A stretch of 64,000 bases of DNA from Trichothermofontia sichuanensis B231 (lineage in GTDB: Bacteria > Cyanobacteriota > Cyanobacteriia > B231), in the NCBI RefSeq assembly GCF_026240635.1, contig NZ_CP110848.1, forward strand, positions 2,517,501-2,581,500. Reading direction: 5' to 3'. A program made the translations under genes and the position numbers. The notes beneath the pieces were generated by a model. That model had not been told where the DNA came from. It saw nothing but the letters and a program-made list of their open reading frames with translations, and did not search any database. Below, piece after piece: positions 44,561-54,257 of this stretch. Position 1 is the stretch's first letter, and each line of letters opens with the position of its first letter.

Positions 44561-45193
44561 ATGGCCAAACTCTCTAAAGAACTGCAACGGTATTTTTTTG
44601 AAGAAGAACGCCCCCCTGACGTGACCTTGGATGACATTCTGGAATTGGCGGGTGAACGGACGTTTGGTTTTCTCCTGGTGATTCTGTCGTTGCCGTCGGC
44701 GTTGCCCGTGCCGGCACCGGGCTATTCCACACCTTTTGGCTTTGTCATCTTTCTCCTGGCAGTGCAACTGATTGCAGGCTCAACACGCCCCTGGCTACCG
44801 GAACGAGTGAATCGGTTTGCGATTCCTTTGCCCAAGGCGCAAGCCTTTATCAAAGCAGGGATTCCGTGGCTACAGCGGATTGAAGTCTTGTCACGGCCCC
44901 GGTTAACCCCCCTCTGTACCAGCCGTCTGGGACGCATCACCCTCGGCAGTATGATTGCCCTCATGGCCTGTTCGATGATGTTGCCGATTCCGTTGACCAA
45001 TACCCTCCCGGCAATGGGGATTTTTATTACTGGCTTTGGCCTCCTGGATGATGATGGGGCCATCAGTTTGGCGGGCCTGGTGGTGTGCCTGCTGGGGTTA
45101 ACCCTGACGACCTCTGTCCTGGTTTTTGGGGTTACGGTGGTGAAGGAGTCGATCGTGCTGCTGAAGCAGGGCTTAGGTAGCCTGTTTCGCTAG
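44561..45193 (+). CDS. ExoD family membrane protein
   Basis: A 210-residue protein of the ExoD family, named for exopolysaccharide synthesis in rhizobia. The N terminus carries SLPSALPVPAPGYSTPFGFV, the family's first membrane hairpin. Two or three further hydrophobic segments follow (ITLGSMIALMACSMMLPIPL; LVVCLLGLTLTTSVLVFGV). The exact role is unclear. The ATG at 44561 (MAKLSKELQRYFFEEE) is chosen because the family begins there. The 3' end overlaps the convergent tpsA-like gene by 62 bases. Confidence 0.88.
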   Translation: MAKLSKELQRYFFEEERPPDVTLDDILELAGERTFGFLLVILSLPSALPVPAPGYSTPFGFVIFLLAVQLIAGSTRPWLPERVNRFAIPLPKAQAFIKAGIPWLQRIEVLSRPRLTPLCTSRLGRITLGSMIALMACSMMLPIPLTNTLPAMGIFITGFGLLDDDGAISLAGLVVCLLGLTLTTSVLVFGVTVVKESIVLLKQGLGSLFR

Positions 45194-47636
45194 CCGATTT
45201 GGGGCCGCATTCCCCGCTAGGGACAAGCCGCGATGTGCCGGTGGCGACGCTGCCTGAATGCCCCCCACCCGCTTCGAACGCTGCCCCCGGTAATGCCACC
45301 AACATCATCTGTCCCTGCCGATTCACCACCCACCCCTGCGCCTCCACTAAGGGGGACGCTAATCCACCCTGGCGGGACTTTGGGGCTGCGTCTCTTGGGG
45401 GGGCCTGCCTAGGAACCGAGTGGGAAACCTTTCCCTGTGCATCCGCCATTGAAACCCAGCCCGCGATCGTTGCCTCTGGACTTAAGGCTTGCGTGGGACT
45501 CGCCGGTAAGCCCCCCCGCCCGGTCACAATAAACTCACTGCGTTCTGTCTCTGGGCGTGGTTCACAGGCACGGGCCACCAGGGACTCAATATCGATCACA
45601 CGACTCGGTAGTGCCACCAAGCCTTGACTAGGGTCCACCTCTGGCGTTTGAATCTCAACCACGCCGCTAAATTGGGGTCCCAGGTCGGAACTGGCGGTAA
45701 TGTCACTGGCTGGGGTTAGCTGCGATCGCGCTGCTGTGCCGAAAATCCCCTGGGCCGTAATCTCGACCCGACCGGCGAAGTTGGCCACGGCGTTGGCGGT
45801 AATATCGCTATTCTCCAGGGCTGCCAAGGTGGCGGTCGTGATGCGGATATTACCCCCCGTGGCAGTGCCAGTGGCGTTCACCGTGAGATGGCTGCCTTGG
45901 CGCAGACGGAGATCCTGGCTGGTGATCGTTAAGTTGCCGCGATCACCTGCTGCGGTTTCTGCCCGTAGGGCCGAGCGGTTGCGTAACTCGATTTGGGGAG
46001 CACTGATCGTCAGGTTGCCCGCCCCCCGCGATCGCTCGGTGGCACTGACGGTAATTTCCGCGCCATCCTGAAGGGATAGCCGTCCGGCTTCAACCTGGAG
46101 ATCGCCGCCGCGCCCCTCGGCGGCGGTGGAAACCCCGGCCAGACCGGCCACCGCCAGCAGTGCGCTGGGGAATTGCCCATCGGGAGTCCGTCCGCTCAGG
46201 GTAATGCTCTCGCTGGCCCGCACCGTCAGGTTACCGGCATCCCCTTGCCCTAGGGTTGAGGCTTGGGCTTCGGCACCGTTGCGAATGGTCAAGTGGTTAG
46301 TTTCAATCAGCAGGTTACCGCCCTGGCCCGTTGAATGGAGATCGGTCCCCGCGAAGAGACCACTGGGGATAGGGACATCGTTATTGCGGACTTGAAAGCC
46401 ATCGAGGAGGACGTCGCGGGCCTGGACGGTCAGGTTACCTGCGGTTCCCATGTCGAAGGTGGTGACGGCGGCCTGGGCACCGTCGCGAATGATCAGGCGA
46501 TCGGCGCGAATATTCAAATTGCCCCCGTTACCAGTCCCCCGACTGGTGCGCGGTTGCACACTGGCAAATAAACCACTGGATTGCACCCGATCGTCGGCAA
46601 GGAGCAGGGCACCGGCTAGCTCGACGGTCTTTGCCGCGACGTTGAGGTTCCCCCCTGTCCCTGACCCAACGGTTAAGGCAAGTACCTGGGAGCCGCCATT
46701 GATCACGAGACGATCGCCTTCAAGGCTAATGGTGCCCCCCTGTCCTGTTTCAGTGACGGCGGCTAACTGGCTATCGCCCGTGAGGGTGAGGGTCTGTCCC
46801 CGCAGCCGGATTTCGCCGGGAGTTTGGTTGCTGCTGGCGTTAACGGTGGCCTGGTGAGTGAGGGTAATGTCCTCGAAGGTGCGAACGGCGTCGTAACCCA
46901 GGGTCCAACCCTGGGCGATCGGCGTTAATTGAACGGTGCTATTGGCCCCCACACTGCCCAACTCGGCCCGTCCCCCCAGAAGGGTCATATACCCCCCCGC
47001 CAACACCAGCGGCCCGCCGACTAGGGCCAGGGTGCGATCGGATTGTCCCTGAAGACCCTCGATATTGGTAGCTCCAAAGGTACGAGACTGATTGCGAATT
47101 TCCCCTGGATGGCGGCCAAACTGGAGACCGATCGGACTGCTGATTGTTAATAAAGGCGTTGTATGGGGTTGAACGGCGCTGAACTCGGTACGATCGCCAA
47201 ATTGGATCGCCTCAGCCGTACTGGCGATGAATGATCCCCCTAGGTTCAGGGCCGCATTGGGACCAAAGAGGATGCCCGCTGGGTTAAGCAAAAAGAGGTC
47301 GGCGCTGCCATTCGCCCGCAGCAGACCATCGATCGTCGATCGCTGGCCCCCCGTCACCCGCGCAACAATGGTTTGTACATCCAGAGCCTGATCAAAAAAG
47401 ACTTCCCCCCCCGTCGGAACCGAAAACTCCCGAAAACTATGGAACAGATTTCCCCCCGCTCGATCGCCCCCCGTGATCGTAAAGGCCCGACCATCAGATG
47501 TTTTCACCTGGGTGGCGAGACTACCATCCGGAATAACCTGGGCAGTGGTAGGGCCAGCGGTTAGGAGAGGAAGTAGTAGCCCCACGGCGATCGTTAGACT
47601 TGACCCTAAGCAGGTTATGAGCCGGGGATAAGACAT
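45132..47636 (-). CDS. TpsA-like secreted protein with filamentous haemagglutinin N-terminal domain
   Basis: An 834-residue exoprotein of the two-partner secretion type. A signal peptide (LTIAVGLLLPLLTAGPTTAQ) leads into the TPS/haemagglutination-activity domain: FHSFREFSVPTGGEVFFD, IVARVTGGQRSTIDGLLRAN and DLFLLNPAGILFGPNAALNL, the last being the diagnostic NPAG-type motif. The rest, to about residue 680, is repeated beta-helix text (GGNLNVAAKTVELAGALLLA, GNLTITSQDLRLRQGSHLTV). The C-terminal 130 residues are low-complexity. A TpsB outer-membrane transporter gene is not adjacent. The 3' end overlaps the convergent exoD-like gene. Confidence 0.9.
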   Translation of the reverse strand: MSYPRLITCLGSSLTIAVGLLLPLLTAGPTTAQVIPDGSLATQVKTSDGRAFTITGGDRAGGNLFHSFREFSVPTGGEVFFDQALDVQTIVARVTGGQRSTIDGLLRANGSADLFLLNPAGILFGPNAALNLGGSFIASTAEAIQFGDRTEFSAVQPHTTPLLTISSPIGLQFGRHPGEIRNQSRTFGATNIEGLQGQSDRTLALVGGPLVLAGGYMTLLGGRAELGSVGANSTVQLTPIAQGWTLGYDAVRTFEDITLTHQATVNASSNQTPGEIRLRGQTLTLTGDSQLAAVTETGQGGTISLEGDRLVINGGSQVLALTVGSGTGGNLNVAAKTVELAGALLLADDRVQSSGLFASVQPRTSRGTGNGGNLNIRADRLIIRDGAQAAVTTFDMGTAGNLTVQARDVLLDGFQVRNNDVPIPSGLFAGTDLHSTGQGGNLLIETNHLTIRNGAEAQASTLGQGDAGNLTVRASESITLSGRTPDGQFPSALLAVAGLAGVSTAAEGRGGDLQVEAGRLSLQDGAEITVSATERSRGAGNLTISAPQIELRNRSALRAETAAGDRGNLTITSQDLRLRQGSHLTVNATGTATGGNIRITTATLAALENSDITANAVANFAGRVEITAQGIFGTAARSQLTPASDITASSDLGPQFSGVVEIQTPEVDPSQGLVALPSRVIDIESLVARACEPRPETERSEFIVTGRGGLPASPTQALSPEATIAGWVSMADAQGKVSHSVPRQAPPRDAAPKSRQGGLASPLVEAQGWVVNRQGQMMLVALPGAAFEAGGGHSGSVATGTSRLVPSGECGPKSASETGYLSPASAARSTPSPP

Positions 47637-49143: not shown

Positions 49144-49914
49144 CTAGGGGTTCAACGTTGTCTGCGCTGCAATATCGATCAGTTTAAGCAGGGTCTTTTC
49201 ACTGAAATATCGGACTTTCCTTCCTTTTTCATCCTTTTTCAGCCGCTCAACCACGTCTGAAAAGGAGCTAAAAGTCTTCTTGCTTCGCTCCTTCAAGATC
49301 TGTTTACAGACTGCACCTGCATCCCGAACTCCTAAGCTTTGAAGCCGCAACGCCAGCTTGTCTATTTCCAGGGTATTCATCTCTTCCAGTAAAGAGCGTT
49401 GTTTAGGGATACGCTCTGAGATTGCCTGTAATTTTTGATTAAAATCTTTTTCAAGCTGTTGTTGCTTTTGTTCGAGAGTTTGTTGAATCTGATTCAGGCG
49501 ATTCTCCAGGTTGTCAAGCCGCTTAGAAAGGACTCCAGCTTCAGTAATAGTAGGCGTTTCAATAGTAGTCGCTGATGCAGCGATAGGAGTAACTGATGTG
49601 GCCTGCGATGCACTAATCTGCTGAAGCAGGGCTTCTTCTACTTCTGGACTATCTTTGCGATCGACTACAAAGGCATTCACCATCTCAGCTTTTCTGGGAT
49701 CTTTTTCCCTGGCCTTGACAGCAGCATAATACTCTTTGTGTCCGTGCAAGACGATAAACTCATGAGGCTTGGCTTCTTTAACAATCAGTGGCCCTGCTAA
49801 GATGCCGACCTTTAAGAAAAGATTAGCCACCTCGTCAATTTCTAATTCTGGGAAAGTCGATCGCGGCTGATCAGACTGGATAGCTTTAACGTCAACAAGT
49901 TTATAGCTAACCAT
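49144..49914 (-). CDS. ParB-like coiled-coil protein of the accessory cassette
   Basis: A 256-residue protein. The N-terminal 85 residues look like a ParB/sulfiredoxin-type domain (LVDVKAIQSDQPRSTFPELE, then LIVKEAKPHEFIVLHGHKEY in the place of the usual substrate loop). A coiled coil runs from about 125 to 175 (LDNLENRLNQIQQTLEQKQQ). The C-terminal 75 residues are lysine-rich and helical (VCKQILKERSKKTF). The start lies 3 bases after the parA stop, with GGAG just upstream, so the two are translated together. It probably acts as the DNA- or partner-binding half of a ParA system; no helix-turn-helix was confirmed. Confidence 0.7.
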   Translation of the reverse strand: MVSYKLVDVKAIQSDQPRSTFPELEIDEVANLFLKVGILAGPLIVKEAKPHEFIVLHGHKEYYAAVKAREKDPRKAEMVNAFVVDRKDSPEVEEALLQQISASQATSVTPIAASATTIETPTITEAGVLSKRLDNLENRLNQIQQTLEQKQQQLEKDFNQKLQAISERIPKQRSLLEEMNTLEIDKLALRLQSLGVRDAGAVCKQILKERSKKTFSSFSDVVERLKKDEKGRKVRYFSEKTLLKLIDIAAQTTLNP

Positions 49915-49917
49915 AAG

Positions 49918-50682
49918 TTAAGCTCCGATTTTTTCTAGCACTTCCCCAGCTAAAACTTCAAATTCTTGGGCTGAAGGGGAATTGGGATCATACTTGAAAA
50001 TAGACTGAGGATTCGGAATTTCGAGATCGCCAACTGTCACTGTTGCATCAGCACAATGAGATAGCGCAACCCTTTCAGAAATAATGGTATCAAAAACAGG
50101 CAGATCATACTTATCAATGACTGCTTGTTTCTGCTTAGGGAATGTATTAGCTAAATACTTAGGATTTGTGCTAATCTTGGAGGGCAAAACTCCTAAAATC
50201 TTCAGTTCACCCTTGCCGATCGAGATGCGATATTCATTGATATCTTTAACAAAATTCTTGACATTGGGAAGTCCCTGATTAGCAAATGGTTTCAAATCGG
50301 AAGGAATGATAAGATAGTCAGCCGCTATCATTGGCAACTGAGCGTAGAGGTCTCTGGAGGGAGGTGCGTCAATTAAAACAATATCATAATCATTCTCTAC
50401 TTGCTTGAGTTTCATGGGTAGCCGGGTTCGACTGACTGCGATTTGGTTTAATTTCTCTTGTACTTCAATCAGGTTAATGTGTGAAGGGATAACATCAATT
50501 TCAGGATCATTAAATAATTGAGACTTTCTTCTAAGATCTGGAATAAAATCTAGATCACCTGATAATAAAAGATGGGCAACATTTGCATCTTTAAGATCAT
50601 CATCTTCTTCCAATACAAACTTAACTAAACCAGTTGCGAACGTTGAGTTTGCTTGTGCGTCAATGTCAATCAATAAAACCAC
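49918..50682 (-). pseudogene. ParA-type ATPase, main part downstream of a frameshift
   Basis: This frame encodes the body of a ParA/MinD-like ATPase. It begins with LLIDIDAQANSTF, the region straight after Walker A, and has the Walker B text YDIVLIDAPPSRDLYAQLPM and the family segment YLIIPSDLKPFANQGLPNVK. The Walker A loop lies upstream in the other frame (50666..51280). Removing one C from 50679-50680 (an extra G in the gene) joins the two as GLRVLLIDIDAQANST, the normal ParA text. So this is a one-base insertion in parA, or a sequencing error, or less likely a programmed +1 shift. A GTG at 50682 could start a truncated protein with no Walker A. Confidence 0.75.
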
Positions 50683-51280
50683 GTAGACCTCTTAATCGCA
50701 AAGCAGCAGCTAGATTAACTGATACGGTTGTCTTGCCAACGCCACCTTTGTTATGATAAATCGTGATAACTTTCATCTGATGTTTCTCCTGAGTGGGATC
50801 TCTTTGGCTGGTTACATCTTGAGCTGGATTTTGTATTGATTTTAACCTTTTTTTAATGTGATCACGACCAATAATGTTTCTAATTTTAGGTAACTGAGTT
50901 GAGATATCTTGACCGGCACATTCAAAAACTTGCTTAACAGTGTTACCCTGCCGTTCATAGATGCGTAATTGTTTAGCGTTCGTTAATACCCCAAACAAAA
51001 TACGCAACTGAAGCATATAGCGGATCAATTTATGTTCATGCTTATCTAGCTTTTCCTGTGGCCCTTTGGCTTCTACAATTAACCCCAGAGGTGTATTGTC
51101 AGTCAGTGAGAATGGCAGCACTTGGGAGGCAAATGCCAGAAAATCTAAACGAATGTTGCCAAAGGTAATCTCTTGGTGCCAGCTATCCGGTGAGTAGCCC
51201 AACTCTGGTAGTAAATATTGAACAATGAGTTTGCTTTCGACCTCAGTCTCATTGCGACACAGATTCGGATCAAAGCTCAA
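50666..51280 (-). CDS. HsdR-N-like nuclease domain in frame with ParA Walker A
   Basis: A 204-residue frame. Residues 1-130 resemble the N-terminal domain of type I restriction HsdR subunits (HSDR_N_2): VESKLIVQYLLPELGYSPDS, then IRLDFLAF and LGLIVEAKGP, which supply the Asp and Glu-x-Lys of a PD-(D/E)xK nuclease fold. A 30-residue linker follows. From residue 169 it reads MKVITIYHNKGGVGKTTVSV, the ParA start with Walker A, and ends at a stop created by the frameshift. The ParA part could be made separately from the internal ATG at 50776. The start is TTG at 51280. I know of no named system with this fusion. Confidence 0.7.
   Translation of the reverse strand: MSFDPNLCRNETEVESKLIVQYLLPELGYSPDSWHQEITFGNIRLDFLAFASQVLPFSLTDNTPLGLIVEAKGPQEKLDKHEHKLIRYMLQLRILFGVLTNAKQLRIYERQGNTVKQVFECAGQDISTQLPKIRNIIGRDHIKKRLKSIQNPAQDVTSQRDPTQEKHQMKVITIYHNKGGVGKTTVSVNLAAALRLRGLRGFID
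50786..50790 (-). promoter_or_regulatory. internal Shine-Dalgarno for the ParA start
   Basis: AGGAG on the minus strand lies 9 bases before the in-frame ATG at 50776-50774 (MKVITIYHN). This allows ParA to be translated separately from the upstream nuclease-like domain. Confidence 0.6.
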
Positions 51281-52253: not shown

Positions 52254-54257
52254 TCAGAACAAGAGATCGAGATTCAACTGGCGGAGGTCCACGGTATAGA
52301 GACACCCACTATGGGTCGTCTCGTCCCAAGTTGCCAGGAGCAAGCCATGCTTACCAAAGCAGGTGATTGCAGTTGGTTGGCCTGGTCCTGCTATCTGTCC
52401 TATTTCCTGTCCTGATCCATCTAGAAACAATAAGGTCCCCGCTGTATCCGCCAGGACATACCCCCAAGGGGCCGCCGCTACCAGCTTGGGGATGATCGCC
52501 ACCGGCAACCGCATCACGCGGAAGGGCTTAAGGTCTAAGACCAAAAGTGATGCTGGATATGGACCATACTCTAGTGGACACGCCATCTTGAGACAAGTGT
52601 CGACGGCTAACGATTCGTAGGTCATCAACCGGTAGGGCTTGATTCCCTGGAAGAATCTCCCGGTCATCACGGGCACATTCAGACTGCCCAACAAACGCCC
52701 GCGGCGATTAAAGACTTCAAACCGGGATGCCTGGGCGCGATGGCGGTACGAAATGGCTACCCCGTGAGCTGAGTCTAGCGGAATAATCTGGGCAATCTGG
52801 GACGCCCGACATTCTAGATTACGCTGCGGGGTTAAGCTTGGCCAAGGCCACAGCCATAAAGGACTTTTGGGCGTACTCGGTAGTAGGGGAGCCGCCGCCA
52901 GCCAGTAGCCGTGGGGATCAATGGCGATCGCCGAATCCGTTTCCTGCGACAGCACACACCGGGGGTAAACTAGGATGGTTTCCAAGCTAGTTGAGGGCAT
53001 CCGGCCAGCAGGGGCGGGAAAAGGAATGTGGTAAAGCCCTTGGGCCGTGATTGCAAAACAGTCTCCGGACGGCTGGGCGAGATATCTACCCTGGAAAATC
53101 GTCAAGGATTGGGCTGGCATTGGTAAGTGACAAACCGATCGCTGCACCTCTTGGCCCGTCAGCAAACCCGGCATAAATGTGCGGCAGTAGACCCACTGGC
53201 GCGACAGGCAGTAAAGGGTTTCCGTAGCCCCCTGCTGGGGTGTCGCGGGCAGGAACTGGACACGTAGGTCACAAATTGGTGCCTTCAGGGGTTCCTGGCG
53301 CAGGGCGGTAAAGGTCAAGTGCAGGGGTGAAGGGAGGTCTGTGGGGGATGCGGTTGCCAGGGCCGCCGCTGGGGCAGCAACCGGCTGGTGGGGAAGCCGG
53401 CAAAAGAGGGGAACCGTCGAGGCCGCCGTGCCTATGTCCAGGGACCAACCGGTAGCCTGGGCTGCCGATCGCAAATCCGCCAGCATTTCCGCCGCCGAGT
53501 GGAAGCGGCGTCCCATCAGCTTTTGTAACGCCTTACGAATCACGCCCTGGAGCGGTTCCGGGATAAAGGCAGGAATTTGGACCGGTCGATTCAAATGAGC
53601 TGACATTAAATCCGCCGGTGTTCCGGAGAAGGGGCGTTCGCCCACCAATAGCTCAAACAAAATAATGCCAACAGCATAGAGATCCGACGCCGGCGAATAC
53701 TGACCATAGAAGCGCTCCGGCGCCATATAGGCCGGCGACCCGGTCGTATTAAAATCCTGATGTAAATCCTGACTCAGTTGGGCAATGCCAAAGTCCGAAA
53801 TCCGTCCCAACCACCCCGTCGGTTGGATCTGGAGGAGGATATTTTCCGGTTTAATGTCACAGTGGACAATCCCCCGACTGTGGGCATGTTCCAACCCCAA
53901 CAAAATATCCATCACCAGCTTGAGACTATGGGCTGGGTGCAGGCGAGCCTCCTCCAGGATCAGATTGCGCAGGGTGCCACTTTCACAGTAGTCCATGACC
54001 AGGTAGCGCCCATTAGCCGTATGTTCCAGCGCCTGACAGGTCACGATATTCGGATGCTGAAGACTCAGGAGAAATCGCAACTCCCGCAGGAATTTGTGCG
54101 TGGGAAAGCGCTCGTGCTTCAGTTCCTTGAGGGCGACCATCTGCCCCGACTTGCGATGAATGGCACAAAAAACGCGACCAAACTGCCCCTGCCCAACTAA
54201 CCCTAAGAGCCGATAGTTGGAAATACGGATACTTCTGGCATAGAGGTTACCTGCCAT
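52254..54257 (-). CDS. spkG: serine/threonine protein kinase, SpkG-like
   Basis: A 667-residue Hanks-type kinase. The kinase domain occupies about residues 10-270: glycine loop GLVGQGQFGRVF, lysine in MVALKELKHE, catalytic loop IVHCDIKPENIL (HCD in place of the usual HRD), DFGIAQLSQD and SPAYMAPERF. The C-terminal 390 residues have no family I recognise and no transmembrane helix. The position, last in a set with two V4R proteins and two small PAP-type proteins, matches slr0152 (SpkG) of Synechocystis, so I infer orthology. It starts 89 bases after the V4R gene. Confidence 0.85.
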   Translation of the reverse strand: MAGNLYARSIRISNYRLLGLVGQGQFGRVFCAIHRKSGQMVALKELKHERFPTHKFLRELRFLLSLQHPNIVTCQALEHTANGRYLVMDYCESGTLRNLILEEARLHPAHSLKLVMDILLGLEHAHSRGIVHCDIKPENILLQIQPTGWLGRISDFGIAQLSQDLHQDFNTTGSPAYMAPERFYGQYSPASDLYAVGIILFELLVGERPFSGTPADLMSAHLNRPVQIPAFIPEPLQGVIRKALQKLMGRRFHSAAEMLADLRSAAQATGWSLDIGTAASTVPLFCRLPHQPVAAPAAALATASPTDLPSPLHLTFTALRQEPLKAPICDLRVQFLPATPQQGATETLYCLSRQWVYCRTFMPGLLTGQEVQRSVCHLPMPAQSLTIFQGRYLAQPSGDCFAITAQGLYHIPFPAPAGRMPSTSLETILVYPRCVLSQETDSAIAIDPHGYWLAAAPLLPSTPKSPLWLWPWPSLTPQRNLECRASQIAQIIPLDSAHGVAISYRHRAQASRFEVFNRRGRLLGSLNVPVMTGRFFQGIKPYRLMTYESLAVDTCLKMACPLEYGPYPASLLVLDLKPFRVMRLPVAIIPKLVAAAPWGYVLADTAGTLLFLDGSGQEIGQIAGPGQPTAITCFGKHGLLLATWDETTHSGCLYTVDLRQLNLDLLF

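Follow-up and report, generated by a model that had tools for sequence, protein, structure and literature searches.

A conserved cyanobacterial cassette joining an HsdR-type nuclease domain, a ParA ATPase, and a ParB-fold adaptor

This study concerns a locus in a stretch of 64,000 nucleotides (nt) of Trichothermofontia sichuanensis B231 (positions 2,517,501 to 2,581,500 of NZ_CP110848.1), which is part of a single contig of 4,436,989 bases and is termed the window below. The locus represents a disrupted two-gene cassette of a kind that is conserved among cyanobacteria and mainly chromosomal. Judging from its sequence, the first gene encodes an HsdR-type PD-(D/E)xK domain that a flexible linker connects to a ParA ATPase. 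The second encodes an adaptor in which a ParB-fold N-terminal domain (N-domain) is followed by a coiled coil and then by a small C-terminal module of exchangeable type. ParA/ParB machines move DNA and protein cargo, and HsdR-type nucleases cut foreign DNA. With a confidence slightly short of even, we favor the idea that the cassette is a chromosomal partition-coupled nuclease acting in genetic conflict (with phages, plasmids, or DNA that enters the cell), the reason being that ParA and the adaptor diversify together within genera and the nuclease does not.

The nuclease-ParA fusion and its distribution

A profile of 20 full-length fusions matched 67 of the 386 cyanobacterial genomes surveyed at E<=1e-60. 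An in-frame fusion was found in 57 of the 67, or about one of seven sampled genomes, spread over 16 family codes and 31 genus codes. Of the other 10 matching genomes, one is the window genome, one is a helicase-linked case, and the rest are truncated, frame-broken, or ParA-only. We read 66 in-frame fusions from the fetched loci, which had been chosen by profile score; their lengths are about 450-530 residues, and the recurrence of intact fusions, for which the initial annotation had proposed to look at a length of ~450 residues, is thereby borne out. In 65 of the 66, a whole or partial adaptor gene lies on the same strand no more than 400 nt downstream (median gap, 0 nt; 62 gaps of 30 nt or less; longest gap, 353 nt). 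The fusion without an adaptor is that of locus L052; the adaptor of L115 is split over two frames, and L035 and L040 end within the adaptor. The fusions fall into two subfamilies, A (the window type) and B, the latter sharing ~30-35% identity with A along most of its length and having a separate ParB-fold adaptor type.

The profile check against HSDR_N_2 that had been proposed gave a match for 20 of 20 family nuclease domains at E<=0.01 (best, 1e-9), and, as described above, the nuclease and ParA parts are not merely adjacent but read in one frame in 66 cases. Among the 66 fusions, D46, E70, and K72 of the nuclease were each found in all, as was E11, and E15 was found in 65; the Walker A lysines, the Motif 2 aspartates, and the Walker B aspartate of ParA were each found in all 66. 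The nuclease fold was assigned from profiles and conserved residues and not from a model, and the best solved match of this domain was BpuSI, with a weak E-value of 0.086. The structure model of the fusion was poor (predicted local distance difference test score, pLDDT, 60.6) and was used for the ParA fold alone, for which Soj and ParA ranked above McdA.

Many copies are on chromosome-sized contigs (e.g., 4.3-7.1 Mb), and others are on draft contigs of undefined replicon. Decayed or truncated copies comprise those of the window, genomes G014, G067, and G330, the second copy of G166, and locus L006. A scan of genome contigs, the one search that covered phyla besides Cyanobacteriota and Bacillota, yielded 11 loci, nine of which were cyanobacterial, one from a Thiomargarita metagenome-assembled genome (MAG), and one from Cohnella. 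Ten of them matched the nuclease part, and the Cohnella contig matched the P-loop region only. The Thiomargarita locus (L004; contig DZAL01000053.1) carries the A-type cassette in intact form; as this MAG is gammaproteobacterial, the cassette may have been transferred horizontally out of cyanobacteria or may reflect a mistake in binning. In Bacillota, which served as an outside group, the nuclease domain was detected in 6 of 249 genomes at E<=1e-8, none of which had a ParA P-loop motif in the open reading frames (ORFs) of at least 100 amino acids (aa) at these loci (~3.3 kb).

Several loci depart from the standard arrangement. ParA-only versions that lack the nuclease exist alongside the fusions. 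L042 (G013) has two tandem ParA-plus-adaptor pairs, both nuclease-less, the second adaptor being short, and L101 (G073) has an additional ParA upstream of the fusion. In L082:4079-7974 (G166), an A-family ParA is in frame with what we recognized by eye as the C-terminal part of a helicase of the superfamily 1 type, with an A-type adaptor downstream; the remaining helicase frame lies directly upstream, with one stop codon between. This case, seen in one genome, suggests that other DNA-acting effectors can join the same ParA-adaptor pair. In genus g46, L105, L106, L107, and L108 carry an orphan B-type adaptor (364-372 aa) less than ~4 kb from the A-type cassette, the nuclease-ParA of its own being absent.

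The window locus

The initial annotation claimed that a nuclease domain is read in frame into the Walker A motif of ParA, and the 5' frame of the locus bears this out (Table 1). This frame of 204 aa begins with TTG and carries RLDF, VEAKGP, and then MKVITIYHNKGGVGKTT. In Pfam it matched AAA_31 at 4.1e-9, as well as HSDR_N at 5.6e-4 and HSDR_N_2 at 6.5e-4, both of the latter being under their curated cut-offs. The claim holds, with the addition that the remainder of ParA (VVLLIDIDAQAN...) sits in a different frame of 254 aa (AAA_31 at 5e-32) and the ParA motifs are divided between the two frames. Because the frame changes inside ParA, between Walker A and the next motif, the copy in the window does not form a single intact gene; the break may be a true mutation or a sequencing error. 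The ParB-like partner was annotated correctly as starting three bases after the parA stop codon, and its match to ParB_N (6e-5) was under the curated cut-off. The only matches to the fusion in the window genome at E<=1e-30 were the two pieces of this copy, and the adaptor was single-copy at E<=0.001. As 66 relatives have the fusion in frame, 65 of them with an adaptor or part of it, we regard that the fusion in the window did not arise by chance.

Table 1. Features of the nuclease-ParA-adaptor locus and its flanking genes, in coordinates of the window
Feature	Position	Strand	Remark
5' frame: HsdR-type nuclease domain, short linker, and first ~36 ParA residues including Walker A	50666..51280	-	
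PD-(D/E)xK (HSDR_N_2-like) domain	50849..51280	-	D46 51143..51145; E70 51071..51073; K72 51065..51067
Deviant Walker A of ParA (KGGVGKTT)	50726..50749	-	
Remainder of ParA, Motif 2 to C-terminus, in the other frame	49918..50682	-	frame change near 50,680
Intact ParB-fold adaptor gene	49144..49914	-	256 aa
ParB_N (ParB/Srx CTPase-fold) domain of the adaptor	49621..49914	-	without GERR motif
Long helix of the adaptor, taken as coiled coil	49372..49539	-	residues 126-181; structure model
C-terminal HhH-type module of the adaptor (putative DNA-binding)	49162..49365	-	residues about 184-251
Flanking gene: large secreted repeat protein resembling haemagglutinin/adhesin-type exoproteins	45132..47636	-	named by eye
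Flanking gene on the opposite side: serine/threonine kinase with a long C-terminal domain	52254..54257	-	named by eye

Co-diversification of ParA and the adaptor

For 26 close pairs of loci, in which the nuclease identity was at least 93%, nonsynonymous divergence (dN) of the nuclease was 0.01-0.03 at a synonymous divergence (dS) of 0.07-0.30, values that indicate purifying selection on this domain. The rest of the cassette can diverge to a great extent at the same time; L123 and L127 share 98% identity in the nuclease, 83% in ParA, and 57% in the adaptor N-domain. We compared the DNA of five of the seven loci of genus g59, which represent three alleles (L122/L123, L126/L128, and L125). The upstream sequence was 92-100% identical among these loci, and the nuclease region was 91-98% identical. 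Comparisons between alleles gave 62-88% for the ParA middle, 92-97% for the final third of ParA, and 58-77% for the initial 300 bases of the adaptor gene. The downstream flank provides no uniform control, as some of the loci stop aligning there. Genus g46 shows no allele replacement: its nuclease, ParA, and adaptor N-domain are 75-91% identical, and only the adaptor C-terminus falls to 46-71%.

We also compared 43 within-genus pairs from 25 A-type loci of 7 genera. Identity in the middle of ParA and identity in the adaptor N-domain were correlated with a rho of 0.92, a value reached by 0 of 2000 within-genus permutations, whereas the nuclease was correlated with neither the ParA middle (rho, -0.03) nor the adaptor N-domain (rho, -0.13). 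In quick trees of 47 loci, family labels changed 15 times for the nuclease, the minimum for 16 labels, and 19 times for the ParA middle plus adaptor N-domain, with family f31 accounting for 1 and 4 changes, respectively; many forks of these trees are weak, four of the labels each stand for one locus without a known code, and column numbers differ between the trees. Our reading of the trees and alleles is that the nuclease has probably been inherited vertically and the ParA-adaptor contact exchanged.

Among the three g59 alleles, 58 of the 67 variable ParA positions fall at 92-214, the first Motif 2 aspartate being 58 in the numbering of Myxococcus ParA. According to the available part of PMC12462528, the ParB peptide sits at the dimer edge of Myxococcus ParA, where Y81, E82, D110, E117, and a Walker-B-proximal loop are implicated. 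The variable segment overlaps the ParB-binding region described there in part, with positions numbered by an offset and not by an alignment. The co-varying segments of ParA and the adaptor may well touch each other. The allele pattern within genera presents the ParA middle and the adaptor N-domain as a matched pair, and the specificity between ParA and ParB can be tested by allele swapping.

The ParB-fold adaptor

The structure model of the window adaptor (pLDDT, 75.9; predicted template modeling score, 0.39) runs from the N-domain through a long helix to a C-terminal helical module, with no helix-turn-helix found in it. The best fold matches were the CTPase domains of ParB, Noc, and KorB, with E-values from 3.8e-5, and PadC ranked lower. 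ParB_N was matched by 63 of the 74 adaptors at E<=0.01. Within residues 1-130, none of the 74 had a ParB-type G[ED]RR, GERR being the nucleotide motif of ParB. No ParB helix-turn-helix family was among the best 25 of the 53 Pfam families matched by these adaptors. Likewise, the ParA-binding motif LG-R/K-GL, in the form given in the available part of PMC12704722, was found in the first 60 residues of 0 of the 74.

The C-terminal modules of 81 of the 85 adaptors (at least 185 aa) were classified with profiles built from some of the same proteins. A-type adaptors (n=60) had HhH in 46 cases, an unnamed third type in 8, SAP/Rho_N in 5, and no module in 1, which lies at a contig end; B-type adaptors (n=21) had SAP in 13 cases, the third type in 4, and none in 4. 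The window adaptor belongs to the HhH class (56.9 bits with the profile of this analysis), and its HhH-type matches in Pfam were weak and under the cut-off (E-values of 0.0015 and 0.014). The module can differ between otherwise similar adaptors: L129 and L131, both from one genus code, share 96% identity in the adaptor N-domain and 25% in the C-terminal 65 residues, one being of SAP and the other of the third type. The C-terminal module probably binds DNA.

The unnamed module is about 70 residues long, follows the pattern ALKAIEYW...LTWENL...KIxxFAxxTYxKLK, and is common to both adaptor types (A-type: L131, L133, L134, L124, L101, L110, L113, and L116; B-type: L046, L083, L118, and L120). No fitting family was seen among the best 25 Pfam families for the 74 adaptors, and the module is possibly an undescribed DNA-binding domain.

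Genomic context and searches of mobile elements

The neighbors of the cassette track the lineage. Families of isoleucyl-tRNA synthetase, threonine synthase, desaturase, and glycosyltransferase recur, names that go beyond the Pfam families being our own reading. HsdM and HsdS were absent from the 25 most frequent of the 197 Pfam families matched by 141 neighbors, and none was recognized by eye in the nearby ORFs of the window. AAA_31 was matched by 13 of the 141 neighbors. A second, distantly related ParA-family gene of about 300 aa, often transcribed divergently, occurs near about 20 loci (e.g., L044:4827-5768). We considered McdA as the identity of this divergent ParA and rejected it, as its best solved relatives were Soj and ParA.

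A plasmid remnant was one of the possibilities named in the initial annotation. In a collection of 72,556 plasmid records, the fusion had no match that covered 80% of its length; six records matched the ParA part only, and the adaptor had no match at all, the B-type proteins not being among the queries. Two records matched the nuclease piece of the window only, both through N-6 DNA methylase genes of Thermus with 34-37% identity. As no plasmid record searched held the fusion or the adaptor and many relatives are on chromosome-sized contigs, we consider a plasmid origin unsupported for the present-day cassette. Among 50,697 phage records, 75 matched the fusion query, none over 80% of its length, and the 20 matches listed covered the ParA part only; no phage record matched the adaptor. 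A scan of viral contigs with one peptide pattern found no relative with the nuclease profile. In PADLOC 2023, both the fusion and the adaptor gave only partial matches, the best being the P-loop region of PDC-M28B (1.5e-11 over 78 of 438 positions).

Possible functions of the cassette

In the mechanism that we propose, ATP-bound ParA dimers would sit on DNA and pair two nuclease domains, which may be activated to cut in this state. The C-terminal module of the adaptor would contact DNA and its N-domain would contact ParA. The adaptor would set the site and lifetime of the ParA dimer and the paired nuclease, most likely by stimulating ATP hydrolysis, as ParB does. The ParA-adaptor pair would then be the specificity or self-control part of the cassette. 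It is conceivable, though on balance doubtful, that such a polymorphic partition-coupled nuclease represents a system of bacterial immunity or exclusion that is categorically new. In this case, the ParA motor would load a vertically inherited HsdR-type nuclease on DNA, and the rapidly swapped ParA-adaptor contact, together with the exchangeable DNA-binding tail, would set the target choice or self-control. Specificity at a single, fixed site of the chromosome would then vary among close strains.

A number of observations weigh against a role in genetic conflict. The initial annotation raised the possibility that relatives lie near defense genes, and no evident defense island was found around them: 11 PADLOC families were represented by 12 family-member matches in the 141 neighbors of 40 loci at E<=1e-10, a count that has no background rate to set it against. 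Next to the cassette we recognized no cognate methylase, which leaves the discrimination of self from non-self unexplained. Since the ParA-only versions lack the nuclease, the ParA-adaptor pair must have a use of its own, and two intact fusions have no intact adaptor (none in L052 and a split one in L115). The co-diversification itself could stem from avoiding cross-talk with the other ParA systems of the cell. As for its measurement, the bounds of the ParA middle, on which the rho of 0.92 depends, were set after genus g59 had been seen, and g59 supplies 21 of the 43 pairs; within genera, the adaptor N-domain also tracks the 3' part of ParA weakly (rho, 0.21; 19 of 2000 permutations). In all 1081 pairs of the 47 loci, the adaptor N-domain was correlated with the nuclease at 0.61 and with the ParA middle at 0.68, and within families the corresponding values were 0.59 and 0.88. 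Because the all-pair correlations are close to each other, the decoupling of the nuclease is a within-genus pattern.

The main rival is a housekeeping device like ParA/ParB, which serves chromosome organization, repair, or segregation and the nuclease of which processes host DNA. We consider it unlikely, though less so than the rivals that follow. The fast divergence of ParA and the adaptor would reflect their insulation from the cell's other ParA systems, and the avoidance of cross-talk between coexisting ParA systems is discussed in the available part of PMC12462528; a second distant ParA often adjoins the cassette, as the AAA_31 matches among the neighbors illustrate. The lineage-specific chromosomal sites among ordinary genes, the nuclease tree that follows the family codes, and the failure to find the fusion and adaptor in the plasmid, phage, and viral collections also fit such a device. 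On the other hand, the patchy presence in 67 of 386 genomes, the repeated decay or truncation listed above, and the wide divergence of alleles that occupy the same site in members of a genus are unusual for a housekeeping gene.

Alternatively, the nuclease-like domain might no longer cut and might instead be a DNA-binding or regulatory part of a ParA-driven machine that positions an unknown cargo. A non-cutting domain is expected to lose its metal-binding residues in some lineages, whereas D46, E70, K72, and E11 are retained in every one of the 66 fusions and E15 in all but one, and the domain is under purifying selection. We thus hold a positioning system to be improbable, even though ParA plus adaptor does occur without the nuclease and the adaptor resembles ParB-fold proteins with roles other than segregation, PadC being among its fold matches.

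Still less probable is an addiction-like pair, in which the fusion is toxic and the adaptor is the antidote, so that the pair secures its own maintenance, with their contact diversifying as that of a toxin and its antidote does. The tight co-diversification of the ParA middle and adaptor N-domain would be expected of such a pair, and the adaptor frame is kept beside frame-broken fusions in the window, in the second copy of L082, in L088, and in L089. Nevertheless, no carriage on plasmids was found, where addiction would be most useful, and a strict antidote role is disfavored because L052 and L115 retain intact fusions without an intact adaptor. Finally, we give almost no credence to programmed frameshifting at the window locus, which would yield both a nuclease with a truncated ParA and the full-length fusion: the frame does change soon after Walker A in the window, and interruptions in the N-terminal region of ParA occur also in the second copy of L082 and in L083, L088, and L089, but the fusion is in one frame in 66 relatives, the places of interruption differ, and L083 retains a short piece of ParA only.

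Comparison with known systems

The initial annotation knew of no named chromosomal system of this build, and we likewise found none in PADLOC, in NCBIfam (searched with the window pieces), or in the open literature searched, which left subscription papers and preprints uncovered and contained no description of a nuclease-ParA fusion. In its anatomy we rate the cassette as a new variant of ParA/ParB-type systems, and we see a fair chance that its function is new in kind.

Of the type I HsdR and type IIG enzymes, the cassette shares the PD-(D/E)xK family with its D...ExK residues. The fusion ends in ParA and has no superfamily 2 helicase motor, unlike type I HsdR, and the cassette includes neither HsdM nor HsdS. 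The McdA/McdB system, which positions carboxysomes in cyanobacteria, also relies on a ParA-family ATPase, and McdA is among the fold matches; nevertheless, the ParA of the cassette has a fused nuclease, and Soj and ParA outrank McdA.

The adaptor is comparable to PadC, Noc, and KorB in that the ParB fold is reused with other domains. According to the available part of PMC12704722, PadC recruits ParA, and both PadC and KorB possess a ParA-binding motif. The same part of that survey of ParB-fold proteins names fusions with HNH, UPF0020, DUF3850, DUF4417, CBS, ASCH, and methyltransferase domains, among which the DUF3850 fusion is the only one that consistently adjoins parA, and it names no HhH or SAP fusions beside a nuclease-ParA.

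Another near relation is ParABS (Soj/Spo0J and ParA/ParB), with which the cassette shares the fold and motifs of the ParA ATPase and a ParB-fold protein encoded directly downstream. It differs from ParABS in the nuclease on ParA and in an adaptor that has no G[ED]RR, LG-R/K-GL, or detected helix-turn-helix and ends in an exchangeable C-terminal module. The combination of a nuclease-ParA with a ParB-fold adaptor devoid of these motifs suggests that a partition motor was turned into a device for the delivery or control of a nuclease.

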